DNA from: Streptomyces sp. NBC_01275
GTDB lineage: Bacteria > Actinomycetota > Actinomycetes > Streptomycetales > Streptomycetaceae
Direction: 5' to 3'
Length of the DNA: 64,000 nucleotides
NCBI RefSeq assembly: GCF_026340655.1
Contig: NZ_JAPEOZ010000001.1
Span: forward strand, 7,440,001 to 7,504,000
A program made the position numbers and the translations under genes. Shown one piece after another: positions 51,027 through 64,000 of the stretch (within the stretch, counting starts at the first letter, position 1; every line of letters starts with the position of its first letter). Under the pieces are notes generated by a model, which was not told where the DNA came from, did not search any database, and saw only the letters and a list, made by a program, of their open reading frames with translations.

Positions 51027-51237
51027 GCCGAAATTTTCGGCCCGATCGGGACCCGGACTTTCCTGGCCCGTCTGCGGGGTGGGATCGCCTGGGCGACGGG
51101 TCGGGGAGGTGACGTCCCGGCGGTCCAGTGACGTTTCTGCGGTGAACCGCTTGCGCCAACGGGGTGAGTGGGACCCGCGCGGAGGCCGACGCCCGCGCTC
51201 CGCCCGGCGATCCTCTTGACCGATGAAGAAACGGTCA
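51027..51237. promoter_or_regulatory. Two operator-like inverted repeats before the PEP mutase-family gene
   Basis: GCCGAAA-T-TTTCGGC (51027-51041) is a near-perfect palindrome and one of the few A/T-rich spots in the area. TGACCG-N9-CGGTCA (51217-51237) lies immediately before the Shine-Dalgarno of the gene at 51252. The gap 50992-51251 contains no gene. Confidence 0.45.
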
Positions 51238-52186: not shown

Positions 52187-53254
52187 TCACCTCCGTGGCG
52201 CAGCCGTGCTGGCCCGTTCCACCAGCCGCGTCGACAGCTCCGTCCGGATCCCCTCCGGGTGGTCCCCGTCCATCATCCGCACCAGCAGCCGCAGACCCGT
52301 CGCCGCCATCTCGGCCAGCGGCTGACGGACGGTGGTCAGGGCGGGGGTGGTCCAGCGGGACTCGGGCAGATCGTCGAACCCGACCACACTGACGTCGTAC
52401 GGGATCCTCAACCCCCGTTCCGACAGGGCCTGGTAGACGCCGAGGGCCATACGGTCGGAGCAGACGAAGACGGCCGTCGGCGGCTCGGGCAGGTCGAGCA
52501 GTTCGCGCATCCGGCGATGGGCGATCGACTCGTCGAAGCCGCCGTTGCGGACGTACTCCGGGCGGTGCCCGAGCCCGGCCGACGCCAGCGCCGAGCGATA
52601 GCCGGCGACCCGGGCGCTGCTGCACATCTTGCGGCGCGGACCGGCGATCACGGCGATGCGTTCATGGCCGAGCGCCAGCAGATGCTCGGTCGCCGTCACC
52701 CCGCCCTGCCAGTTCGCCGCGCCCACCGACACCACCCCGGGCGGCGGATCGACCACCGGGTCGATCATCACGAACGGGGTGCGGTGCTGCTCCAGCCAGG
52801 CGTACTGGGACTCCGTCAACTCCGCCAGGTTGAACAGCACTCCGGCCGAGCCGCGCACGGTGATCTTGTCCAGCCAGCCGCGCTGCGGGCGGCCGACGCG
52901 GGTGCGGGACAGGGCGGCCGAGACCACCACGTCCAGGCCCGCGTCGTGCGCGGCCTCCTCCACGCCGTGCAGCACCGCGCCCGACCAGGAACTGTCCAGC
53001 GAGTGCACGACGAGGTCGATCAGGCGGGGCGGCTTCGTCGCGTCGAAGCGCGGTCTGCGCACATAGCCGAGCCGGTCCAGCGCCTCCGTGACCCGCCGCC
53101 GGGTCTCGGGGGCGACGTCCTCGCGGCCGTTGACCACCTTGGAGGCGGTCGGCACGGACACCCCCGCCTCGCGGGCCACGACCGCCAGCGTCGGTCCGGC
53201 CGTTACGCTCGCGCTCGCATTCGCACTCGCGCTCGCACTCCCCGTGCGCACCAT
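52187..53254 (-). CDS. LacI-family transcriptional regulator
   Basis: A 355-residue repressor. After a low-complexity Ser/Ala N-terminus, the helix-turn-helix is TLAVVAREAGVSVPTASKVV with hinge helix RRRVTEALDRLGYVRR, followed by a periplasmic-binding-type sugar domain (LIDLVVHSLDSSWSGAVLHG; TAVFVCSDRMALGVYQAL; VSVVGFDDLPESRWTTPALT). It stands at the left edge of the pectin-type locus. A 12-bp palindrome of the class found at the locus promoters lies 86 bp upstream of its start, so autoregulation and control of the locus are likely. Confidence 0.9.
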   Translation of the reverse strand: MVRTGSASASANASASVTAGPTLAVVAREAGVSVPTASKVVNGREDVAPETRRRVTEALDRLGYVRRPRFDATKPPRLIDLVVHSLDSSWSGAVLHGVEEAAHDAGLDVVVSAALSRTRVGRPQRGWLDKITVRGSAGVLFNLAELTESQYAWLEQHRTPFVMIDPVVDPPPGVVSVGAANWQGGVTATEHLLALGHERIAVIAGPRRKMCSSARVAGYRSALASAGLGHRPEYVRNGGFDESIAHRRMRELLDLPEPPTAVFVCSDRMALGVYQALSERGLRIPYDVSVVGFDDLPESRWTTPALTTVRQPLAEMAATGLRLLVRMMDGDHPEGIRTELSTRLVERASTAAPRR

Positions 53255-53340
53255 CGGGAACCACCTCTCCAGCCCGCCCGAGGGCCAGCGAAAGCTCGAC
53301 CAGCGCTGTTTCCGAGCCGACTGGAGACAGACGACTCACA

Positions 53341-53352
53341 GAAAGCGCTTGC
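53341..53352. promoter_or_regulatory. LacI-type operator upstream of the lacI gene
   Basis: GAAAGCGCTTGC, a CG-centred palindrome of the LacI operator class. The identical 12-mer recurs at 63640-63651 next to the acetylesterase gene, and variants occur at 54562, 54575, 60248 and 63584. Confidence 0.75.
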
Positions 53353-53449
53353 TATCCTAGGTGCGCCTCAGCGCGGCGTGAAGACACCGGGAAACGCGGG
53401 ATCTTGGCGGGCTGGAGCGCGTGACCGGCGCGCTCGAGTCGACGTCCAC

Positions 53450-53491
53450 GCCCGCCGCCCGCCGCCCGCCGCCCGCCGCCCGCCGCCCGCC
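53450..53491. repeat. Heptanucleotide repeat, six copies
   Basis: GCCCGCC is repeated six times without error, 37 bp after the end of the hydroxyacid dehydrogenase gene. The palindrome GCCCTCGAGGGC follows at about 53496. A 7-bp unit is not a codon multiple, so length change here would be tolerated only outside genes. Confidence 0.92.
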
Positions 53492-53528
53492 GAGCGCCCT
53501 CGAGGGCTGCTCCACCGCCTCGTCCGCG

Positions 53529-54542
53529 TCAGGCGACTCGGGCCAGGTCCGCGTGCCGTACCTCGTGGGCGAGGGGCAGGCCGTCGGCCACGCGCTCCAG
53601 CTCCTCCACGACGATGCGGCCGAGCCGCTCCAGTTCGTTGCCGAGGGAGCCCGCGATGTGCGGGGTGAGAAACACGTTCGGCAACCGGTACAGCGGAGAG
53701 TCGGCGGGCAGCGGCTCGGGCTCGGTGACGTCCAGGACGGCGTGCAGCCGGCCGGAGACCAACTCGTCGACGAGGGCCGCATGGTCGACGAGCGCACCCC
53801 GGGAGGTGTTGACGAGCACGCCGCCGTCGCGGATCAGGGCGAGCCGCGCACGGTCGAGCAGGTGGTGGGTCTCGGGGATGTCGGGCGCGTGCAGGCTGAC
53901 GATGTCGCTGTGGAGCAGCAGGTCTTCCAGAGAGAGCAGACGGACGCCCAGTTCGGCGGCCTCGGCGGGCTCGACGTAGGGGTCGTGGAGCAGGACCTCG
54001 AAGTCGTACGGGCGCAGCAGTTCCAGGAGGCGGCGGCCCACGCGGGAGGCGCCGATGACGCCGATCCGGCGGCCGAGGTTGCCGGTGGCGGCGGTCTCGG
54101 CGGGGGTGGGCTGGGCGTGGGTGCGGCGGTAGCGCTCGCGATGGGCGAAGGCGTCCTTCCCGGCGAGCAGGATCATCCCGAGCGTGTACTCGGCGACCGG
54201 GACGGCGTTGCCGGTGACCGCGCTGGAGACGCTCACCCCGCCGTTCCACAGCGCCTCGCCGATCAGCGAGCGGACCGAGCCCGCGGCGTGCAGGACCGTG
54301 CGCAGCCGGGGTGTTGCGGCGAGCGTGTCCGCGTCGAGGCGGGGACAGCCCCAGCCGGTGATCAGGACCTCGGCGTCGGCCAGGGCGGGCGAGGCGGCGG
54401 GGTCGGCGAAGTCCTGTACGACGAGCGTCGGGTCGATCTCGGCGGTCCGCCGCAGCCGGGCCACGAGCGGTGCGGGAAACAGCAGAGGGAGGTGCACCGG
54501 ATCCATGGCGAACACGGCCCTGGGCAGCTGGGCGCTGGGCAT
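53529..54542 (-). CDS. D-isomer specific 2-hydroxyacid dehydrogenase
   Basis: A 337-residue NAD-dependent dehydrogenase. The NAD site is GRRIGVIGASRVGRRLLELL (G-x-S-x-x-G variant), and the catalytic Arg, Glu and His lie in NTSRGALVDH, DVTEPEPLP and TPHIAGSLGN. The substrate is unknown; in a pectin-type locus a sugar-acid-derived 2-oxoacid is plausible. ATG 54542 follows two LacI-type operators by 20-45 bp. An upstream ATG (54617) would place the operators inside the gene, so I reject it. Confidence 0.88.
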   Translation of the reverse strand: MPSAQLPRAVFAMDPVHLPLLFPAPLVARLRRTAEIDPTLVVQDFADPAASPALADAEVLITGWGCPRLDADTLAATPRLRTVLHAAGSVRSLIGEALWNGGVSVSSAVTGNAVPVAEYTLGMILLAGKDAFAHRERYRRTHAQPTPAETAATGNLGRRIGVIGASRVGRRLLELLRPYDFEVLLHDPYVEPAEAAELGVRLLSLEDLLLHSDIVSLHAPDIPETHHLLDRARLALIRDGGVLVNTSRGALVDHAALVDELVSGRLHAVLDVTEPEPLPADSPLYRLPNVFLTPHIAGSLGNELERLGRIVVEELERVADGLPLAHEVRHADLARVA

Positions 54543-54561
54543 GACTCTCCCGAGGTGCGTA

Positions 54562-54586
54562 GGAAACGTTTTCTGAAAGCGCCTTC
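54562..54586. promoter_or_regulatory. Paired LacI-type operators before the hydroxyacid dehydrogenase gene
   Basis: Two palindromes, GGAAACGTTTTC (54562-54573) and GAAAGCGCCTTC (54575-54586), are centred 13 bp apart. The second matches the locus operator at 10 of 12 positions. They lie 20-44 bp upstream of the dehydrogenase ATG. Confidence 0.72.
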
Positions 54587-54764
54587 TACGGTAGGTCTGG
54601 CGTGCAGACATGGTCAATCGGTCGGAGGGATCGCCAGATCGCCCGAAAGGGGAAGCCTTTCAGGCGAGTTCATGCGCAAATGACAGAGGGGGAGGATGTC
54701 ACCAGCGGCGGTTACGACCAGTTGGGTTTCGGCACCCTCACGTACGCCAAATAGCCCTGCTACA

Positions 54765-54823
54765 GCTCGTGCACCGGAATACCGCGTGCCGCTGTGGTGC
54801 TCTGGTGTTACCGGTGCACGAGC
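54765..54823. promoter_or_regulatory. Perfect 13-bp inverted repeat in front of the esterase gene
   Basis: GCTCGTGCACCGG (54765-54777) and CCGGTGCACGAGC (54811-54823) are exact inverted copies with 33 nt between them, ending 22 bp before the esterase ATG. In RNA this would be a stable hairpin just upstream of the ribosome-binding site; as DNA it could be a two-site operator. No gene lies in the gap 54543-54845. Confidence 0.8.
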
Positions 54824-54845
54824 GCGGCGAAGGGCTGGTGAGCAG

Positions 54846-56519
54846 ATGGCACAAGACCAGACGAACCCCGTGGACGATTCCCGGGTGAACCCCGATCCCG
54901 TCGCGAGGACGCCCTACGGGGCCGTACGCGGGAGGTATGAGGACGGCATCGCGGTCTTCCGGGGCATCCCCTACGCGGCGCCCCCCTTCGGGCCCCGCCG
55001 GTTCCGGCCGCCCGAGCCGCCCGAGCCCTGGGACGGGGTGCGCGACGCGGGCGCCTTCGGGTCGACGCCGCCGAAACCGCCGTACTCCGACGCCTTCGCC
55101 CAGTATCTGGCCGATCCCGTCGTGCCGGGCGACGACTGTCTCAACCTCAACGTCTGGACGCCCGAGCCCGGTCCCGGCGCCCGGCTCCCCGTCCTGGTGT
55201 GGCTGCACGGCGGCGCGCTGACCAGGGGATCCTCGGCCGTGCCCGTGTACGACGGGCGGAACTTCGCACGCGATGGAACCGTCTTCGTGTCGATCAACTA
55301 CCGACTGGGGGTGGAGGGCTACGGACTGTTCCCGGACGCCCCCGCCAACCCCGGTCTGCGCGACCAGCTCGCCGCCCTGGAATGGGTCCACCGGTCGATC
55401 AGGGACTTCGGCGGCGACCCCGACAGGGTCACCCTGGCCGGTCAGTCCGCCGGCGCGATCAGCGTCGGCGCCCTGATCGCCGCCCCGCAGGCCCAGGGAC
55501 TCTTCCGGCGGGCCGTCCTGCAGAGCGGGCCGCCGGAGGCCTTCGAGCGGGACAAGGTGCGGCGCATGGTGCGCCGTATGGCGACCCGGTTGAAGATTCC
55601 CGCCACCGCCGAGGCCTTCGCCGCCGTCGACCGCGACCTGCTGCTGCGCACCCAGGCCGACGTCGGCAGACTCAGCAGCCCCGTCCTGGGCGGGCCCGGC
55701 TTCGGCGTCGTCGTCGACGGCGACCTCGTCCCGCGCGACCCGCTCGAAGCCCTGATCGACGGCGACGCGGCCCCCGGCGTCGACCTCCTGCTCGGCTGGA
55801 CCCGCGACGAGTACCGGCTCTGGCTGGTCCCGGGCGGTCTGCTGGAACGCGTCGACCGCCTCGGCGCCGTCGCCCTCGCCGGCGCCATGGCCCGCTGCCA
55901 CTGCGGCCACGAGGTGCCGCGCGGCTACCGTGCCCTGCACCCGGAGGCCGGCACCGCCGAGACCGTCGGCCAGATGGTCACCGACCACCTGCTGCGCACG
56001 CCCCTGCACCGGCTGGCCGACGCCCGCCCCGGATCGTCGTATGTGTACGAGTTCGCCTGGCCCTCGCTGCGGCCGGGGCTCGGCGCCTGCCACGCCCTCG
56101 AGCTCGGCTTCGTCTTCGACACCGGTGACGCGCCCGAGTCCGCCAGGCTCGCCGGGGACGGCGCCCCGCGGGAGCTCGCCGACGCGATGCACGGCGCGTG
56201 GGTGCGGTTCGCGGCGACGGGCGACCCCGGCTGGGAGGCCTGGGACGCGGCGCACCCGGTGCGGATCTTCGGCGAGGTCGAGGGCGAGGGCGCACCGTAT
56301 CCGGGCGATGTCACCTCCAGCGGTCACCGCATGCCCTACACGTCCTACGGTCCGCGTGACCGGGAGCTGGCCCTGTGGACGGCGCAGACCCCCACCGGGG
56401 AGAGCGCGATCCCCGCGCCGCCGCCGGATCCGCTCACCGGAAAAGGCGTCGTACGCGGTACCGAGCTCAGGTCGGCGGTACGCCGACTGCGGCGGGCCGG
56501 GGGAGCACGGCGGACCTGA
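54846..56519 (+). CDS. Type-B carboxylesterase/lipase family protein
   Basis: A 557-residue alpha/beta hydrolase. The oxyanion and nucleophile regions are VLVWLHGGALTRGSS and VTLAGQSAGAISVG (GxSxG with the catalytic Ser). The acid is in LLLGWTRDEYRLW and the His in LGACHALELGFVF. The family uses esters of many kinds; beside pectin enzymes an aryl- or acetyl-ester role is possible. There is no signal peptide, so the protein is cytoplasmic. ATG 54846 begins MAQDQTNPVDDSR. Confidence 0.88.
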   Translation: MAQDQTNPVDDSRVNPDPVARTPYGAVRGRYEDGIAVFRGIPYAAPPFGPRRFRPPEPPEPWDGVRDAGAFGSTPPKPPYSDAFAQYLADPVVPGDDCLNLNVWTPEPGPGARLPVLVWLHGGALTRGSSAVPVYDGRNFARDGTVFVSINYRLGVEGYGLFPDAPANPGLRDQLAALEWVHRSIRDFGGDPDRVTLAGQSAGAISVGALIAAPQAQGLFRRAVLQSGPPEAFERDKVRRMVRRMATRLKIPATAEAFAAVDRDLLLRTQADVGRLSSPVLGGPGFGVVVDGDLVPRDPLEALIDGDAAPGVDLLLGWTRDEYRLWLVPGGLLERVDRLGAVALAGAMARCHCGHEVPRGYRALHPEAGTAETVGQMVTDHLLRTPLHRLADARPGSSYVYEFAWPSLRPGLGACHALELGFVFDTGDAPESARLAGDGAPRELADAMHGAWVRFAATGDPGWEAWDAAHPVRIFGEVEGEGAPYPGDVTSSGHRMPYTSYGPRDRELALWTAQTPTGESAIPAPPPDPLTGKGVVRGTELRSAVRRLRRAGGARRT

Positions 56520-56539
56520 CCGCCAGGCCAGGGCACTCC

Positions 56540-56667
56540 CACGCCACGCCCCCACGCCACGCCCCCAGGCCACCGCGCCCACGTCACCGCACCGTCACGC
56601 CCCACGTCACCGGACCGCAGGCCCCCCACATCACCGCACCACCGGTCTCCCCACGTCACCGCACCGC
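56540..56667. repeat. Degenerate repeats after the esterase gene
   Basis: On the plus strand CACGCCACGCCCC and CACGTCACCGCACC-type units of about 13-15 bp repeat at least six times with variation. They lie between the esterase stop and a truncated LacI reading frame, and run into the end of that frame. Confidence 0.7.
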
Positions 56668-56748
56668 CAGGGAACCCTTGCCGACCCCCGCCTGGGCCGC
56701 CACATCTCTGACGGTGCTGCGCACCCCGACCGCGCTCTTCCTCGTCAT
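56656..56748 (-). pseudogene. Truncated LacI-type regulator, helix-turn-helix only
   Basis: A 30-codon frame with a good Shine-Dalgarno (GGAGGGGCGGGG then ATG) encodes MTRKSAVGVR then STVRDVAAQAGVGKGSLAVR and stops. The TVRDVAAQAGV-x-x-G-S pattern is the first helix-turn-helix of LacI regulators, which normally continues SRVLN and about 300 more residues. The frame ends exactly where the GTGACGTGGG-type repeats begin. It is 83 bp downstream of mmuM on the same strand. The rest of the gap 56520-56831 is repeat sequence. Confidence 0.6.
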
Positions 56749-56831
56749 CCCCGCCCCTCCCCCCGGAAAGCCCGGCGACAACCGGTTTCCCCGAGCGGAG
56801 GCCAGCAGCGGTGGTCACGTCGGCGGAGGGC

Positions 56832-57773
56832 TTACGACGTGGTCAGCGTCCGGGCGATCGACGCCACCGCCTCCGGACCCACCCGACAGCAGCCGCCGAT
56901 CAGCCGGGCCCCCGACTCGCGCCAGACCAGGACCTGTTCGGGAGCGAAGGTGGAACGGCCCTGCCACGCCCGCGCCCGGGCGTCCCAGACCTCGCCGCTG
57001 TTGGGGTAGACGACGACCGGCTTGCCCGTCACCCGCGCCGCGGTCGCCACGGCGGCCTCGACGTCCTCGGGGGCGCAGCAGTTGACGCCGACCGCGATCA
57101 CCTCGTCCGCGTCCGCGGCCAGTGCGAACGCCTCCTCCAACGGCTGCCCGGCACGCGTACGGTCACCGGAGATCGAGTACGACAGCCAGGCCGGCACGCC
57201 GAGGCCGCGCACCGCCCGCAGCAGCGCCTCGGCCTCGTCGGCGTCGGGAACCGTTTCCAGGGCCAGCACGTCGGGCGCCGCGGCGGCCAGCACCTCGAGA
57301 CGCGGACGGTGGAAACGCTCCAGCTCCTCGACGCTCAGGCCGTAGCGGCCCCGGTACTCGGAACCGTCCGCGAGCATCGCCCCGTACGGGCCCACCGACG
57401 CGGCCACCCACAGGGGGTGTGCGACCCCGTTGTCCCGGGCCTGCCGGGCCGCCTCTCGGGCCAGTTCCACACTCAGCGTGAGCAGCCGGGCGGCTTCCTC
57501 GCGGGTGATTCCGCGCTTCGCGAAGCCCTCGAAGGTGGCCTGGTAACTGGCGGTGATCGCCACGTTCGCGCCCGCCTCGAAGTAGGCGAGGTGCGCCTCG
57601 GTGATCGCCTCGGGCCGCTCGGCGAGCAGCCGCGCCGACCACAGCTCGTCGCTCAGGTCGTGCCCGGCGGACGCGAGCTGGTTGGACATGCCGCCGTCGA
57701 GGACGACGGCGCCGGCGGCGAGGGCCGCTGCGAGGGAGGTCTCCGCGAGGGGAGCAGGAGTGTCGCTGGTCAT
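56832..57773 (-). CDS. mmuM: Homocysteine S-methyltransferase
   Basis: A 313-residue zinc methyltransferase that makes methionine from homocysteine, usually with S-methylmethionine. The first strand is GAVVLDGGMSNQL. Zinc cysteines are visible in AVGVNCCAPEDVE and RLIGGCCRVGPEA. PNSGEVWDARARAWQG is the substrate-loop region. The TAGCGT box 6 nt before the ATG suggests a leaderless transcript. S-methylmethionine is a plant compound, which agrees with the plant-polymer genes next door, but this is only suggestive. Confidence 0.92.
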   Translation of the reverse strand: MTSDTPAPLAETSLAAALAAGAVVLDGGMSNQLASAGHDLSDELWSARLLAERPEAITEAHLAYFEAGANVAITASYQATFEGFAKRGITREEAARLLTLSVELAREAARQARDNGVAHPLWVAASVGPYGAMLADGSEYRGRYGLSVEELERFHRPRLEVLAAAAPDVLALETVPDADEAEALLRAVRGLGVPAWLSYSISGDRTRAGQPLEEAFALAADADEVIAVGVNCCAPEDVEAAVATAARVTGKPVVVYPNSGEVWDARARAWQGRSTFAPEQVLVWRESGARLIGGCCRVGPEAVASIARTLTTS

Positions 57774-57919
57774 GCGACGACGCTAGTCGAAGGCGCGGCG
57801 GGCGGCCGGACGAGTCCGGTCCATGAACGGATCGACCACGATGTGGGACCGGGGGCGCGGTCACCCTTTCGTTCGCGCGCCGTGGGCAGGCCACCCCGGT
57901 GGCGCTTCCGCGTTGTGGT

Positions 57920-60163
57920 TCAGCGGCCGCGGGCGGAGTGCCGCCCACCCCGGCGGCGGCCTTCGCCGCGCGTCCGTCTGGTCGTCGGCATCAGCAGCCC
58001 GCCGAGCAGCCCGGCCGCCAGGACGTACGGCCACCAGCCGAACGCGCCGCTCTCGGCCGCGCTCGCGCTCCGGGTCCGAGCCGTCACCGCCCCCGACGAG
58101 GCCTGCCCGGTCGCGCGCGCCGAGGGGCTCGCGGCCGTCGCCGTGAGGACGACGTCGTTGCCGTCGCCGCCCCGGTAGCTGATCCGGTAGACGGTGTCGG
58201 CGAGCTTCACCTCGGTGCCCTCGCGCAGCCCGTCGAAGGCGCCGGAGACCACGGTGCCCCCGGTGTGTTCGAGGACGGTGATCTCCTTCCCGGACCCCTC
58301 CTGCCCGGACCCCTCCTTCCCGGACCTGTCCTGCCCGGACCCCTCCTTCTCCTCGCCCGTGCTCAGGCTCGCCGCCGGGCTCGCGCCGGTCTCCTGCGCC
58401 GTGCCGGTGCTCTCTTGCACCGGATCCGCCGCCCCGGCCGCCGACAGGTCGAGCCCGCCGCTCAGCCGCACCTTCCCGCCGACCTTCAACGGGGAGCTCT
58501 TCAGCACGAGTTGGCCCTGGTCGCTCTGGGTGTAGTCGCCGGTCACCGTCAACCCGCCCGCGACGACGCCGTCGTTCGTCACGGCCCCCTTCACCGTGCC
58601 CTTGCCGCTGAGCGTGCTTGTCACCCGCAGCGCCGAGCCGCCGGTGTCCAGCCGCGCCCCCGCCGCCGTCAGCCGGACGGCCCTGCTGTTCGCGAGGGTC
58701 GCCCCGTCCTTGAGCGCCAGGGTCCCCTTCCGGACCGTCGTCGTTCCGGTGTACGTCACCGCGGACCCCGTAAGGGTCGTCGTCGCGGCCCCGGACTGGA
58801 CGAGCGAGCCGCTCCCGCCGATCCGCGACAGGGAGACCGCCTTCTCGGTGTTCCGCACGACGAGCGTCCCGTCGTTCACGACCCGTCGCAGCGTGGTGCC
58901 GGTGAGCAGCGAACCGTCGCCGCCCGCCGCGCCCGACCCCAGCCGCAGCACCGCCCCCGGCCCCACGGTCGTCGTGCCGTCGTAGTGCTGATCGGCCGCG
59001 AAGGTGACGTCGTTGCCCTTCGTCCCGGCGATGACGACGTCCCCGGCGCCGGGCGCCGCCAGCGTGTCGTGGTACCTGCCCCCGCCGATCGGCGCGCCCA
59101 GGGTCACGGGGCCGTTGTAGTCGAACGTCAGCAGCGACCGGCGGCCGCTCGCCTGGTGAAGATTGATGTAGACGGTCTCCTTCGTTCCCGGCATGAAGAT
59201 CCGGTGCGTGGTGCCGTCGCCCCACTGCACGTTCGCACCCTCGATGTTGGTGCCGCGCTTGTTCAACTGATGAGGTATCGCCCGCCAGTTGATGCCCGGG
59301 TCGCTCAACGACGGGTCGGTTTCGCCGCCCCGGTCGCTGTAGCTGTACTGCCCGGTGAGCACGACCTTGCTGCCGGGCCGGGTGTGGACGTTGACGTCGC
59401 TGCCGTACGCCCGCTGGTAGAAGTCCTGGCGCAGGGTGATCGTCTGGTCGAGCGGGGTGTCGATGATCCAGGAGCCCTGGTTGAGGATCGCGCGGGCGTC
59501 GGGCAGCGACACCGGGTACTCGGGGCGGCCGACGGCCATGCCGGTGCCGTTGTCGATGACACCGGAGAACGGGTGGGTGCCCGCCAGGTCGAGGGTGCCC
59601 CACATGTTGCGGGGCTGGGTGACCAGACCCGAGCCGCTGATCGTGCCGATGTTGAAGGTGCGGGTCAGGGAGAGGCGGAGGGTGCCGTCGACGCGGACGT
59701 TGAGCTGGTTCAGCCGGTAGCCGGGCGTGTCGTAGGGGAAGTGCCCGATGAGACCCGTACCTCCGCCGGCGCCGTACTGGAGCGTGGCCCCGCGCTCGAT
59801 GGTGATCGCGGGCGGGTCGGGGCGGGTGACCGTCGTGTACGGATGGTTGCCGCCCTGCGTGCGCACCACCTGCCGTTGCCGGGCCTTCGGCAGCGTGAAG
59901 TCGCTGTCCCTGGTGAGGATCAGCGTCCCGCTGCCGCGCACGGTGAGACTCCCCTGACCTCGGAAGACGCCGTCGTACGTGGTGGTCCCGGAGGGCACGG
60001 TGACCACCGTGTCGCCGGTGAGGGCCACGTCCCGGTCGGCGAGGACGTCGGCGGTGACGTCCCGGGCGTCGGCGGCCGCGGCCGGGGGAGCGGTGGCCAG
60101 GAGGGCGGCGACGGCCGCGAGGGCCCCGGCGGCCGCTGCTGTGGTGTGGAGGGGGGTGCGCAC
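57920..60163 (-). CDS. Membrane-tethered beta-strand-repeat (PATR-like) surface protein
   Basis: A 747-residue exported protein. A signal peptide (ends PPAAAAD) is followed by about 550 residues of beta-helix-like sequence with autotransporter-associated repeats (YDGTTTVGPGAVLRLGSGAA; YTGTTTVRKGTLALKDGATL; VTGDYTQSDQGQLVLKSSPL). Next come a Gly/Ser/Glu repeat linker (KEGSGQEGSGKE), a final GGTVVSGAFDGL-type strand, and a C-terminal tail of one hydrophobic segment plus an Arg-rich end. No LPXTG is visible. GTG 60163 begins VRTPLHTTAAAAG. A LacI-type operator lies 85 bp upstream. Confidence 0.75.
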   Translation of the reverse strand: MRTPLHTTAAAAGALAAVAALLATAPPAAAADARDVTADVLADRDVALTGDTVVTVPSGTTTYDGVFRGQGSLTVRGSGTLILTRDSDFTLPKARQRQVVRTQGGNHPYTTVTRPDPPAITIERGATLQYGAGGGTGLIGHFPYDTPGYRLNQLNVRVDGTLRLSLTRTFNIGTISGSGLVTQPRNMWGTLDLAGTHPFSGVIDNGTGMAVGRPEYPVSLPDARAILNQGSWIIDTPLDQTITLRQDFYQRAYGSDVNVHTRPGSKVVLTGQYSYSDRGGETDPSLSDPGINWRAIPHQLNKRGTNIEGANVQWGDGTTHRIFMPGTKETVYINLHQASGRRSLLTFDYNGPVTLGAPIGGGRYHDTLAAPGAGDVVIAGTKGNDVTFAADQHYDGTTTVGPGAVLRLGSGAAGGDGSLLTGTTLRRVVNDGTLVVRNTEKAVSLSRIGGSGSLVQSGAATTTLTGSAVTYTGTTTVRKGTLALKDGATLANSRAVRLTAAGARLDTGGSALRVTSTLSGKGTVKGAVTNDGVVAGGLTVTGDYTQSDQGQLVLKSSPLKVGGKVRLSGGLDLSAAGAADPVQESTGTAQETGASPAASLSTGEEKEGSGQDRSGKEGSGQEGSGKEITVLEHTGGTVVSGAFDGLREGTEVKLADTVYRISYRGGDGNDVVLTATAASPSARATGQASSGAVTARTRSASAAESGAFGWWPYVLAAGLLGGLLMPTTRRTRGEGRRRGGRHSARGR

Positions 60164-60247
60164 GGACGGGAGACGGTCCGGGGCCCCGACCGATAACAGA
60201 AAATCGCCGCCCCGCCGGAAAACACCGGACCCCGAAGGGATCCTCCG

Positions 60248-60259
60248 GAAAAGGCTTTC
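60248..60259. promoter_or_regulatory. LacI-type operator between the surface-protein and GH43 genes
   Basis: GAAAAGGCTTTC, a variant of the locus operator, sits in the 252-bp divergent region between the surface-protein gene (start 60163) and the GH43 gene (start 60416) and could control both. Confidence 0.65.
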
Positions 60260-60415
60260 TATCAAGTCTCGTCCGACCCGTTGACCTGCTCGTAACACAC
60301 CCTTACCTTTTCGGCGTTCGTCATTCCACATCCCGTTCGCAGTACCGAACGTCCCTCGCTCGGTATCCAGGACTTCGGCGCCCCGTCGCCGACACCGTGA
60401 AGGAGAGTGCGTGAG

Positions 60416-61828
60416 ATGAGACGTGCGTACGCGACCCTGCTCGCCCTCTGTCTGGCGCTGATCGGCGCCTTCGTCACCGCGGGCCCCGCCGGGGCGGCGG
60501 CGCAGACCGTGCCCAACGGCGTCCAGTTCACCGACACCTCGGGCAACGTCGTGCATGCGCACGGCGGGGGTGTCATCAAGGTCGGCAGCTACTACTACTG
60601 GTTCGGCGAGGACCGCAACGCGGACAACACCTTCCGGTCCGTGGACGCCTACCGCTCCACCGACCTGAAGACCTGGGAGTTCAGAAACCGCGTGCTGACC
60701 CAGTCCAGCGCCTCCGAGCTGAGCACCGCCTACATCGAGCGGCCCAAGGTCGTGTACAACGCGTCCACCGGCAAGTTCGTGATGTGGATGCACAAGGAGA
60801 ACGGCGTCGACTACAGCGAGGCCCGCGCGGCCGTCGCCGTGTCCGACACGATCGACGGCAGCTACACCTACCAGAGCAGCTTCCGCCCGCTCGGCCAGTA
60901 CATGTCCCGTGACATCACGACGTTCGTCGACACCGACGGAACCGGTTACATGGTGTCGGCCGCCAACGAGAACTACGACCTGCACATCTACCGGCTCACC
61001 GCCGACTACACCGGCATCGCGAGCCTGGTCGCCAACCCCTGGGCGGGCGGCCACCGCGAGGCGCCGGCCCTGTTCAAGCGCGACGGCGTCTACTTCATGC
61101 TGACGTCGGGGGCGACCGGCTGGAGCCCCAACCAGCAGCAGTACGCCACCGCGACCAGCCCGGCCGGCCCCTGGACGTCGATGACGAACGTGGGCGACTC
61201 CACGGCCTACGGCTCGCAGACCGCGTACGTCCTGCCCGTCGACGGGACCTCCGGCACGTCGTACCTCTACATGGGCGACCGCTGGGGCAACTCCTTCGGC
61301 GGCACCGTCAACGACTCCCGCTACGTCTGGCTGCCGCTGACGTTCCCGTCCTCCACCTCCCTCTCGTTGTCCTGGTCCCCGGAGGTCACCGTCGACACGG
61401 CCGCCGGGACGGTCGGCGGCACCAGCGCCACGTACAACACGCTGATCGCCCGGCACTCCGCCAAGTGCGCCGATGTGACCAGCCAGTCGCTGTGGGCGGG
61501 CGCGCAGGTCAAGCAGTACGACTGCAACGGCGGCAACAACCAGAAGTACTGGTTCAAGTCGGTCGCGACCGGTTACTACCAGCTGGTCGTCCGCAACAGC
61601 TCCCTGTGCCTGCAGGAGAACGCCAACACGGTCACCCAGGAGAACTGCGACACGTCGGCCACCGCCCAGCAGTGGTCCCTCACCACCAGCGGGAGCTACG
61701 TGAACGTGAAGTCCCGCGCGAGCGGCGAGTGCCTGGACGTGAACGGCGCGTCCACCGCCAACTCCGCCGCGATCATCACGTACACGTGCAACGGCGGAAC
61801 GAACCAGCAGTGGACGCGCGGTAGTTGA
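60416..61828 (+). CDS. GH43 exo-beta-1,3-galactanase-type enzyme with CBM13
   Basis: A 470-residue secreted glycosidase. The signal peptide ends AGPAGAAA. The five-bladed GH43 propeller (about 30-330) has HAHGGGVIKVGSYYYWFGED, ERPKVVYNASTGKFVMWMH, GHREAPALFKRDGVYFMLTS and YGSQTAYVLPV, closest in pattern to subfamily 24 (galactan 1,3-beta-galactosidase). A ricin-type CBM13 (about 340-470) shows three QxW-like repeats: NNQKYWF, AQQWSL and NQQWTR. It would trim arabinogalactan side chains. ATG 60416 has AAGGAG 10 nt upstream. Confidence 0.85.
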   Translation: MRRAYATLLALCLALIGAFVTAGPAGAAAQTVPNGVQFTDTSGNVVHAHGGGVIKVGSYYYWFGEDRNADNTFRSVDAYRSTDLKTWEFRNRVLTQSSASELSTAYIERPKVVYNASTGKFVMWMHKENGVDYSEARAAVAVSDTIDGSYTYQSSFRPLGQYMSRDITTFVDTDGTGYMVSAANENYDLHIYRLTADYTGIASLVANPWAGGHREAPALFKRDGVYFMLTSGATGWSPNQQQYATATSPAGPWTSMTNVGDSTAYGSQTAYVLPVDGTSGTSYLYMGDRWGNSFGGTVNDSRYVWLPLTFPSSTSLSLSWSPEVTVDTAAGTVGGTSATYNTLIARHSAKCADVTSQSLWAGAQVKQYDCNGGNNQKYWFKSVATGYYQLVVRNSSLCLQENANTVTQENCDTSATAQQWSLTTSGSYVNVKSRASGECLDVNGASTANSAAIITYTCNGGTNQQWTRGS

Positions 61829-61835
61829 CGGATCG

Positions 61836-63515
61836 TCAGGGCAGCAGGTCGATCGCGTCGATCGATGTGCCCGCGCTGAGGAAGGACGTCGTCCCCGAGC
61901 CGCTCGCCACGTAGATCTTCAGCTGGTTGTAGGCACTGGCATCGGTCAGCCAGGCGGACGCCGGGACGCTGTAGGTGAACGTGTAGTTGTTGCCCCGGTA
62001 GGAGCCCACGGTCAGCGACCGGGTGCTCGGCTGGGTGGGCGGCGAGGGGACGGCCGACGTCCAGGTGTCGTTGACGACGATCTGCGGACGGCCGTTGGCG
62101 TAGGCCGTCGTCACGCCGATGCGCAGGGTGTGCGCGGCGGCGGCCTGCGCCGCGGTCAGCTTGAAGTAGACGATGAGACCGCTGTTGACGTCCTTCCAGA
62201 GGTAGCAGGGGAAGGCGGACGTCTCGCTGCCGCTGCCGATGACGACGTTTCCGGTCCAGGCGGCGGCCCGGGGGTCGGACGGATGGGCGTACGTCATCAG
62301 GTCGGCGTTCTTGAAACCGCTCGGCGTGCCGTTCCAGTCGCCGATCCGCCAGATCGCGCTCGCGTTGCTCGGATCGTTGGAGGACGGGATCGCGATCGTG
62401 TTGAGGGTGGTCGTGCCGCCGGCGGACACGGTCGTCTGGGTGCTGTAGACAGCCAGCTCGCCCTTGAAGACCGTCAGCGTGTACGTCCCCGGCAGCACCC
62501 CGCCGACGGAGAAGTAGCCGTCCGAGGCCCGCGCCGAACCCCAGTACTGTGCCGCCGAGTTGGCCAGTCCGACCGTGTACGGGTAGGCCGTGTTCCGCCC
62601 GGTGATGCCGACGCCCGCGACCCTGCCCCGGCCGCTCGCGCCGACGTAGCCCGAGATGCCCAGCGAGTCCGCCCACGAGGTGGTCAGCGTGCCCGGGAAG
62701 AGGGACGAGGAGGGCGCCCCGCCGCCCGTGAAGGCGATGACGTAGGGGCCCTGGAGGCCGAAGCGCTGGGCCTCGGTCTGGTTCTCGCCGTAGTAGAGGA
62801 TCTCGTACAGACCGCCGCCGTCGGCGCTCTGGTGGCGCAGGAGGGAGCGGTAGAACGGGCCGCCGGAGGCCTTCTCGTGGTTGCTGCGCACGATCCACAG
62901 GCCGACGCCGCCGGCCGTCCAGCCGATGTAGTCGTAGTCGACGACGCGCACCTTGGAGTAGTGCTTGGAGCGGGTCTGGCCGTCGGACTTCGCGAACACG
63001 TCCGAGGCTTCGATGGTGCTGGTCGTGTACGTGTAGGAGTCGGGCTCGTCGTTGAGGAACAGGCCCTTCTTCACGCGCACGATGTAGCGGGTGGCCGAGA
63101 CGGAGGCGTCGGCCTTGTTGGTCCACAGATAGACGTTGTTCTCGCCGCTGCGGGCCGCGTAGTAGTGCTTGAGCGTGCCGTAGGCGACGGAGACGAGAAT
63201 CGTCGAGCCGGACTGACTGATCGTCACCGTCGAGGCGCCGAGGCCGGATTCGATGTGCGAGTTCTTGCCGTCGTAGCCCTGGTACTCGGTTCCCTTGTAG
63301 GCCAGCGAGGTCAGGTCGCCGTTGGTCTTGCTGACCTTGAAGACCAGGTCGGCGCCGGTGTCGACGACGTAGTTCGAGCCGTCGTCGGTGTAGCCGAAGG
63401 CCGCGGCGGACGCGCTCGGCGCGAGCGGCCCGGCGAGGGCGGCCGAGCCGGCGGCGGCAGCGGTGCCGAGGACGAAGGTGCGGCGTCGGACCGTGTGGCT
63501 GTCGGATCCGGACAT
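61836..63515 (-). CDS. PL4 rhamnogalacturonan lyase
   Basis: A 559-residue secreted polysaccharide lyase. A Tat-type signal peptide (RRRTFVLGTAAAAGSAAL) is followed by the PL4 catalytic beta-sandwich (DLVFKVSKTNGDLTSLAYKG; YDYIGWTAGGVGLWIV; NHEKASGGPFYRSLL), a fibronectin-like domain (SVGGVLPGTYTLTVFKGELA) and a C-terminal carbohydrate-binding domain (WRIGDWNGTPSGFKNADLMT). Such enzymes cut the rhamnogalacturonan-I backbone. It converges with the GH43 gene, 7 bp apart. Operators lie 55-135 bp upstream. Confidence 0.9.
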   Translation of the reverse strand: MSGSDSHTVRRRTFVLGTAAAAGSAALAGPLAPSASAAAFGYTDDGSNYVVDTGADLVFKVSKTNGDLTSLAYKGTEYQGYDGKNSHIESGLGASTVTISQSGSTILVSVAYGTLKHYYAARSGENNVYLWTNKADASVSATRYIVRVKKGLFLNDEPDSYTYTTSTIEASDVFAKSDGQTRSKHYSKVRVVDYDYIGWTAGGVGLWIVRSNHEKASGGPFYRSLLRHQSADGGGLYEILYYGENQTEAQRFGLQGPYVIAFTGGGAPSSSLFPGTLTTSWADSLGISGYVGASGRGRVAGVGITGRNTAYPYTVGLANSAAQYWGSARASDGYFSVGGVLPGTYTLTVFKGELAVYSTQTTVSAGGTTTLNTIAIPSSNDPSNASAIWRIGDWNGTPSGFKNADLMTYAHPSDPRAAAWTGNVVIGSGSETSAFPCYLWKDVNSGLIVYFKLTAAQAAAAHTLRIGVTTAYANGRPQIVVNDTWTSAVPSPPTQPSTRSLTVGSYRGNNYTFTYSVPASAWLTDASAYNQLKIYVASGSGTTSFLSAGTSIDAIDLLP

Positions 63516-63569
63516 GGGGGTGCCTCCTTCGGGAGGTGTGGGGGTGCGGGTGAGGGAGAGAGTGGCAGT

Positions 63570-63651
63570 TGAATCGATTTCGCGAAAGGGCTTTCACGTG
63601 CGGGAGGTTGGCAATCTTGTGAAATGAGTCCAAGGGCTAGAAAGCGCTTGC
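63570..63651. promoter_or_regulatory. LacI-type operators between PL4 and acetylesterase genes
   Basis: GAAAGGGCTTTC (63584-63595) and GAAAGCGCTTGC (63640-63651) lie in the divergent promoter region, with a weaker TGAATCGATTTC at 63570. The last strong site is identical to the one in front of lacI. The first is nearer the lyase start, the second nearer the acetylesterase start. Confidence 0.75.
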
Positions 63652-63706
63652 CAGAGGCGGTACGGTCCAGCCGCCAGGCCCTGTTGCCGTGACGGAGGAG
63701 TCGCAC

Positions 63707-64000
63707 GTGAGACGTTTCACCATCGCCGTGTCGGCGGCGCTGACCCTGACCGCCGCGCTGACGGCCATGCCCACCGCCCAGGCCCACGAAGGCCGAGGGC
63801 CGCTCGGCATGGCCGACTGCACCGCTGCCGCCTGCCACTTCGACGTCCCGCCCGGCACATACGACGTGAAGGTCCTCCTCGGCGGCGACGCCGAGTCGAG
63901 CACGAGCATCAGCGGAGAGACGCGGCGCGCCCTGCTCCCCGAGACCGCCGCCCCGGCCGGCGAGCGCGTCGCCCGCAGCTTCACCGTCAACGTCCGCACC
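63707..64000 (+). CDS. Rhamnogalacturonan acetylesterase, N-terminal part
   Basis: The first 98 residues of a secreted esterase cut by the window edge. The signal peptide ends PTAQAHE. The visible part, HFDVPPGTYDVKVLLGGD then STSISGETRRALLPE and FTVNVRT, matches the N-terminal beta-sandwich of CE12-type rhamnogalacturonan acetylesterases; the SGNH catalytic domain would follow outside. It removes acetyl groups that block RG-I lyases. GTG 63707 has GGAGG about 10 nt upstream. Confidence 0.82.
   Translation, partial: MRRFTIAVSAALTLTAALTAMPTAQAHEGRGPLGMADCTAAACHFDVPPGTYDVKVLLGGDAESSTSISGETRRALLPETAAPAGERVARSFTVNVRT

Follow-up and report, generated by a model that had tools for sequence, protein, structure and literature searches.

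A palindromic putative operator at pectin and rhamnogalacturonan genes of Streptomyces sp. NBC_01275 and its two candidate LacI-type repressors

The location of a regulator gene beside a recurring palindrome raises the question of whether the neighboring protein is also the one that reads it. Such a case is found in Streptomyces sp. NBC_01275 (genome label G000), in bases 7440001-7504000 of contig 1 of the 10.4-Mb genome, a stretch of 64,000 nucleotides which is referred to here as the window. The palindrome recurs there near a LacI-family gene, the gene of a rhamnogalacturonan lyase of polysaccharide lyase family 4 (PL4) and an acetylesterase gene. The initial annotation proposed that the adjacent regulator (the window LacI), its operator and its targets belong together as a regulon for one polymer. 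Judged from sequence comparison, the palindrome at pectin and rhamnogalacturonan genes is very probably a repressor-binding site, and a putative operator with a multi-locus regulon is well supported, within the window and across the genome. The ownership of the site by the window LacI is not proven, because two LacI-type genes carry the palindrome. The second one, at G000:C1:3484006-3485049 (L093:10007-11050), is called here the 3484006 LacI.

The exact 12-mer GAAAGCGCTTGC occurs upstream of lacI (53341-53352) and of the acetylesterase gene (63640-63651), and four variants lie at 54562, 54575, 60248 and 63584, all as annotated. The 12-mer is the imperfect core of a fuller element, the 16-bp palindrome TAGNAAGCGCTTNCTA. 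A CG center had been assigned to every site, which holds for four of the six; the sites at 60248 and 63584 have a GG center. With its palindromic form, CG center and position near the starts of sugar genes, the element fits a putative operator of the LacI type. The 16-bp operator of lacI, CAGAAAGCGCTTGCTA (53339..53354; 27.2 bits), is located about 85 bp 5′ of the start codon and reads TAGCAAGCGCTTTCTG on the minus strand, immediately after a -10-like TAGGAT hexamer. This position directly 3′ of the hexamer fits repression; a scan of 53200-54700 with a generic sigma-70 consensus predicted no promoter. The form TAGGATAGCAAGCGCTTTC is present in 16 of 80 orthologous lacI loci. A tandem pair of operator-like sites, TAGGAAACGTTTTCTG (54560..54575; 16.0 bits) and CTGAAAGCGCCTTCTA (54573..54588; 14.8 bits; TAGAAGGCGCTTTCAG on the minus strand), precedes the gene of a D-isomer-specific 2-hydroxyacid dehydrogenase (HADH). 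The first member lies about 20 bp before the probable HADH start at 54542, although the longest open reading frame opens at 54617, and many of the 48 relatives listed show the form TAGAAGGCGCTTTC or TAGAAGACGCTTTC upstream of HADH. The PL4-side site GAAAGGGCTTTC (63584..63595) lies 69 bp 5′ of the PL4 start, and the acetylesterase-side operator is TAGAAAGCGCTTGCCA (63638..63653; 19.0 bits). The weaker operator-like site CGGAAAAGGCTTTCTA (60246..60261, 12-mer 60248-60259; 13.7 bits) is common to a surface protein gene and a GH43 gene. Its 12-mer, GAAAAGGCTTTC, recurs at G000:C1:1103818, 5′ of the LacI gene 1104021 (helix SLATASKALNG), and a third regulator may own the 60248 site.

Whether these sites exceed chance depends on how strictly they are defined. 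The scores given above come from a matrix built from 35 distinct sites in the promoters of orthologous lacI genes; L078 and L083 were dropped first, and both still show TAGGAAGCGCTTACTG. In the 64-kb window the matrix gives five matches of at least 13 bits (at 53337, 63636, 54558, 54571 and 60244, from highest to lowest score), all of them among the six sites noted before, and the next best match reaches 11.0. In 100 Markov shuffles such matches average 0.13, with a maximum of 2. The match at 53337 is not independent evidence, since the matrix derives from orthologs of the lacI gene located there, and the sixth site, 63584, escapes the matrix. An origin of the motif in chance or base composition finds support in the looser searches, which count against an operator. 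The 12-mer with up to three mismatches has 41 matches in the window, with a shuffle mean of 50.9 and 88 of 100 shuffles reaching 41. Genome-wide, the 12-mer with up to one mismatch has 38 matches and its reversed pattern 42, which is a background frequency, and the 16-mer with up to three mismatches has 88 against 170 for the reversed control, a result on which nothing was rested; the DNA of this genome may just hold more copies of the reversed core TTCGCGAA. Only the exact 12-mer stands out, with nine genome-wide occurrences versus two for the reversed pattern, and across 246 genomes of the genus the form TAGNAAGCGCTTNC is found 775 times versus 63. A random genome frequency, named in the initial annotation as evidence against the proposal, is seen for the one-mismatch form but neither for the exact one nor for TAGNAAGCGCTTNC in the genus.

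A chance pattern is further contradicted by conservation in the relatives, and together with the exact-match enrichment, the upstream placement and the ortholog matrix this makes it a very improbable explanation. Orthologous loci were taken as the best 80 of 306, of which 79 are titled Streptomyces and one 'Actinobacteria bacterium'. The 12-mer with up to three mismatches is found upstream of lacI in all 80 (16, 30, 27 and 7 loci with 0, 1, 2 and 3 mismatches), versus 0, 0, 2 and 15 in a control with one shuffle per locus, the other 63 being worse. The recognition helix of the window LacI, SVPTASKVVNG, is identical in all 80. The pair GAAAGGGCTTTC and GAAAGCGCTTGC between PL4 and the acetylesterase recurs in 29 of 29 other loci, its members 56-57 bp apart and with no more than one mismatch apiece; the PL4-side member is exact in 28 and has one mismatch in the remaining locus, and the acetylesterase-side 12-mer is exact in 22 and has one mismatch in 7. 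An alignment that adds 34 other loci shows conservation peaks at 63584 (0.993, the best 12-bp window of the region) and 63637 (0.978), compared with a median of 0.80. A stretch beside the PL4 start, at 63517 (0.980), is conserved as highly as both operator windows.

The placement of the sites was followed by counting matrix matches within 350 bp upstream of the linked genes, in distinct regions, with the own locus (L149) excluded and genes with short flanks dropped; the upstream regions of divergent neighbors are shared, a few loci are near-duplicates, and two PL4 locus pairs share an identical 300-bp piece. Under these rules, a site precedes HADH in 38/47 cases, the carboxylesterase in 23/33 (a region partly common to HADH), PL4 in 25/33, the acetylesterase in 28/34, the surface protein in 7/9 and GH43 in just 4/11. 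The corresponding counts are 2/12 for the PEP-mutase-like gene and 1/23 for the linked methyltransferase, and the 77/77 obtained for lacI is that of the matrix training set. Earlier counts, which included L149 and repeated sequences, were 27/35 for PL4 and 29/35 for the acetylesterase. About half of the 80 relatives carry in their flanks an ABC binding-protein gene (42 loci, with an upstream site in 24), HADH (47 loci) and a further LacI, here LacI362 (45 loci). The usual order, seen among the 18 of 80 loci that were viewed, is binding protein, HADH, LacI362, binding protein, permeases, GH43 and LacI, with sites in between. The window has no such arrangement of binding protein, HADH, LacI362 and permease, and G000 has no close ortholog of LacI362 (best match 54%).

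Beyond the two window sites, seven exact 12-mers are found in the genome. Four precede the genes of a PL1 pectate lyase (573343), a PL9-like lyase with a lacI gene on the opposite side (9330595), an ABC sugar-binding protein (1593254) and a GntR/FCD protein (2450896). One separates a Gfo/Idh gene from a lacI gene (3483784), one falls a few codons inside the reading frame of a PL11 rhamnogalacturonan lyase (8392279), and one is found at another Gfo/Idh gene (1322353). The last one falls within the longest open reading frame, yet 5′ of the first Pfam match, so that the true Gfo/Idh start is taken as later. In other genomes, sites occur before genes of PL1-type lyases, Cupin_2, DUF6250, Gfo/Idh and ThuA-GSDH-CBM6 proteins and before an ABC permease gene located behind a dehydratase gene. 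The operator with a rhamnogalacturonan and pectin target set, as proposed from the window, is thereby borne out by sequence and extended genome-wide. The assignment to one polymer was too narrow, as sites are also present at homogalacturonan-type lyase, ABC transporter and Gfo/Idh genes. Large ThuA-GSDH-PKD-CBM6 proteins with an operator upstream were seen in two other genomes (L129, L146). The symmetric form GAAAGCGCTTTC is found at three places of the genome, by a CBM6/35 protein gene, a GH38 gene and a GH115 gene, which are probably targets of other regulators.

The 3484006 LacI has the same helix-turn-helix and periplasmic-binding-protein-like sensor architecture as the window LacI, with the helix SPATVSRVLNG (residues PAR), and its gene is divergent from a Gfo/Idh gene; in the relatives examined the palindrome lies between these two genes as well. 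When the matrix was applied to 51 LacI promoters of the genome, the window LacI and the 3484006 LacI both scored 27.2 and were the only two above 20, the next reaching 15.3, even though the matrix was trained on orthologs of the window LacI and not on the 3484006 type. A match to the 3484006 LacI at E<=1e-70 is present in 214/246 genomes of the genus, and an ortholog of the window LacI (at least 66% identity) in 74/246. The mean number of TAGNAAGCGCTTNC sites per genome is 5.33 where both LacIs occur (72 genomes) and 0.88 where neither does (40, among them 24 without any match). It is 2.63 in the 114 genomes that have only the 3484006 type, 2.78 in 18 whose match to it is intermediate, and 3 in two that have the window LacI but no strong 3484006 match; 'lacking' stands here for no match better than E 1e-100, weak matches included. 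All seven genomes with a close PL4 and no window LacI keep the PL4-region pair, with both 12-mers exact in G014, G091, G212 and G221, one mismatch in one 12-mer in G024, and one in each in G102 and G181; one-mismatch forms of the acetylesterase-side site also occur in 7/27 other loci that have the window LacI. The PL1 sites persist in G212 and G095, which carry the 3484006 type but lack the window LacI. The promoter scores, the distribution in the genus, the site counts and the sites in genomes without the window LacI point to the 3484006 LacI as the general owner.

On these results, control of a local rhamnogalacturonan regulon by the window LacI alone, acting through the window sites, is improbable; this is close to what the initial annotation had in mind. 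Linkage and the own-promoter site in all 80 orthologous loci speak for this view, but the promoter of the 3484006 LacI holds an equal site, more sites are found where only the 3484006 type occurs than where neither LacI does, and all seven genomes with a close PL4 and without the window LacI keep the PL4-region pair. The neighboring LacI as the regulator is, therefore, not established, the more so as its residues VPK recur in another LacI associated with a different box, described below. At the same time, PL4 tracks the window LacI: 51 genomes have both, 7 PL4 only, 23 the LacI only and 165 neither, which places the window LacI in 51/58 PL4 genomes versus 23/188 others (kinship ignored; PL4 homologs at 67% in G004 and G238 scored as PL4-negative). 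In G032, the sole genome found to have the window LacI without a PAR-type LacI such as the one at 3484006, the palindrome before the window lacI is intact (30.0 bits), two further sites lie at ABC transporter genes, and neither LacI362 nor a full-length match above 38% to the 3484006 LacI was found. The palindrome of G032 and the co-occurrence with PL4 suggest that the window LacI reads the palindrome too.

A possible, though less probable, alternative to shared ownership is that the 3484006 LacI (PAR) is the sole owner, the window lacI being merely its target and the product of this gene binding a BxlR-type box, CGAAA-S-TTTCG. According to excerpts of PMC4743123 and PMC12772271, BxlR is a xylobiose-responsive LacI-type repressor of Streptomyces, and its published box is CGAAACTTTCG (PMC4743123). 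The residues VPK are common to the window LacI and LacI 10292003, which are 41.8% identical; the latter, at most a candidate for BxlR itself, is followed closely by CGAAAGTTTCG, beyond which lie a weakly GH79-like gene and a GH43 gene. A sister LacI, 53% identical and with APTVSK (APK), has CGAATGTTTCG in its promoter. In addition, a CGAAASTTTCG box with up to one mismatch stands beside the AAGCGCTT palindrome in 36/80 window-lacI promoters of the relatives (L009-L088), and 21/80 have two boxes; only 2/1600 shuffles have at least one. Such helix and boxes make it possible that the window LacI reads another box, and a sole owner agrees with the sites that persist at PL1 (G212, G095) and PL4 (G014, G091, G212, G221) where the window LacI is missing and the 3484006 type present. 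Against it stand G032 and the tracking of PL4, the palindrome or a variant in all 80 window-lacI promoters, and the boxes themselves: the window's own lacI promoter (53240-53520) has no BxlR-type box within three mismatches, and 44/80 ortholog promoters have none within one mismatch. The exact CGAAANTTTCG is almost absent before the genes of the 80 loci (lacI 3/71), with enrichment only when one mismatch is allowed.

Since the evidence on ownership is mixed, shared ownership is favored with moderate confidence: two repressors would read TAGNAAGCGCTTNCTA, the 3484006 LacI as the general owner and the window LacI in addition. Several observations weigh against this reading. A regression of site counts that includes genome size has both LacIs as predictors (rate ratios 2.95 and 1.59, kinship ignored), but once two own-promoter sites per LacI are subtracted neither predicts the counts (rate ratios 0.87 and 1.16; z -0.6 and 0.6), a subtraction which over-corrects where only one strand matched. 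In these data, G119 with a truncated and G073 with a split 3484006-type copy were scored as having it in the regression and lacking it in the group means. LacI362, tried as a predictor of site number, was rejected (rate ratio 1.08). G032 is a single genome, assembled in 560 contigs, and it carries numerous further LacI genes, of which two give partial 43% matches to the sensor half. G102, in which no gene of the three LacI types was found, retains the two PL4-region sites, each with a single mismatch, so that conservation may not need the window, 3484006 or LacI362 regulators. The site at 8392279 is doubtful and may be due to chance, because it lies inside the PL11 reading frame, and the presence of GAAAGCGCTTTC at the GH38 and GH115 genes suggests that further regulators use similar DNA.

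If two repressors share the palindrome, TAGNAAGCGCTTNCTA would act as the operator of LacI-type proteins whose dimers bind near transcription starts. The local targets would be lacI itself and three gene pairs, namely HADH/esterase, surface protein/GH43 and PL4/acetylesterase; the distant ones would be the pectate lyase, ABC-transporter and Gfo/Idh genes. Repression would hold until a sugar derived from pectin or rhamnogalacturonan releases the repressors. In a division of labor, the window LacI (VPK) would at the least repress the gene that encodes it, and probably the rhamnogalacturonan genes nearby as well. Tentatively, two non-orthologous LacI repressors (PAR and VPK) on one palindrome, with the lacI gene of one flanked by BxlR-type boxes in many relatives, could form a junction of pectin and xylan signals, in a layered network of cell-wall repressors and not one regulator per polymer.

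To our knowledge, few Streptomyces LacI regulators have known targets, and this genome encodes at least 51 of them. The CcpA cre boxes of Bacillus, with the core AAGCGCTT within a palindrome, are a LacI-family site type serving a global target set; the core is alike here, whereas the outer bases are AG...CT, not TG...CA, and the targets are pathway-specific. The window LacI resembles BxlR in family, genus and the use of polysaccharides, and the box type of BxlR occurs in the window-lacI promoters of relatives. Unlike the BxlR box CGAAACTTTCG, the window sites have the form TAGNAAGCGCTTNCTA, and the window lacI promoter is without a BxlR box. In excerpts of PMC3870299, the LacI-family RhaR of Actinomycetales, RhiR and RhmR are assigned palindromic operators and roles in rhamnose or rhamnogalacturonide use by comparative genomics. 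The type of regulator, the operators and the sugar theme are alike, whereas, as far as their descriptions there go, those proteins act on rhamnose catabolism and oligosaccharide uptake, and none of the nine exact sites here lies at a recognized rha gene. The LacI-family regulons in PMC4052901, in the portions consulted, share the method and the kind of system; that paper describes Streptomycetaceae as very rich in LacI regulators and names galacturonate regulators, and neither 'pectin' nor 'rhamno' appears in its main text. Control of sugar-polymer genes by LacI proteins is an already known kind of system (PMC4052901, PMC3870299). The titles and abstract beginnings of open-licence literature, a scope without subscription papers and supplements, gave no Streptomyces LacI of pectin or rhamnogalacturonan genes and no TAGNAAGCGCTTNCTA operator. 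What emerges for the use of pectin is a concrete putative operator together with a list of its targets and two repressor candidates, and the case illustrates a trap, as the regulator neighboring a motif may not be its owner.

The genes around the sites were assigned by domain searches. The window LacI (52187..53254, minus strand; Pfam LacI and Peripla_BP_3) has PF00356 at 45.1 bits and PF13377 at 144.6 bits, both above cut-off, and belongs to the LacI family. Between the lacI operator and the HADH gene (53529..54542, minus strand; 2-Hacid_dh_C), a short run of CCGCCGCCCG-type units is located at 53450-53492. A carboxylesterase gene (54846..56519, plus strand; COesterase) is divergent from HADH across the tandem sites and is followed by a homocysteine methyltransferase gene (56832-57773, minus strand). 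The secreted or surface protein (57920..60205, minus strand) has an autotransporter-type repeat, with PATR at 24.9 bits, below the Pfam cut-off of 27, and NCBIfam autotrns_rpt at 23.5, above the cut-off of 19.85; such a repeat protein thus occurs in a Streptomyces-type genome, with an operator-like site common to GH43. The GH43-type enzyme (60416..61828, plus strand; Pfam) carries a ricin-B lectin domain. The rhamnogalacturonan lyase (61836..63515, minus strand) has RhgB_N, fn3_3 and CBM-like Pfam domains, all three detected, and is a PL4 member. The GDSL-family acetylesterase (63689..64000, plus strand; Lipase_GDSL_2, above cut-off), possibly acting on pectin or rhamnogalacturonan, is present by its start only and runs past the window; NCBIfam PaeY reaches 44 bits against a cut-off of 1000.

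Boxes of the BxlR type also occur apart from the lacI promoters. A perfect CGAAATTTTCG is found at 51029-51039, 129 bp before the PEP-mutase-like gene (51168 onward, plus strand), and is one of six CGAAANTTTCG places of the genome. At L248:10771 (G000:C1:2058770), CGAAACTTTCG lies where the starts of a PL9-like lyase gene and of a GH43 gene face each other, and a second PL4 copy adjoins this place, forming a pectin cluster with a box of the xylan-repressor type.

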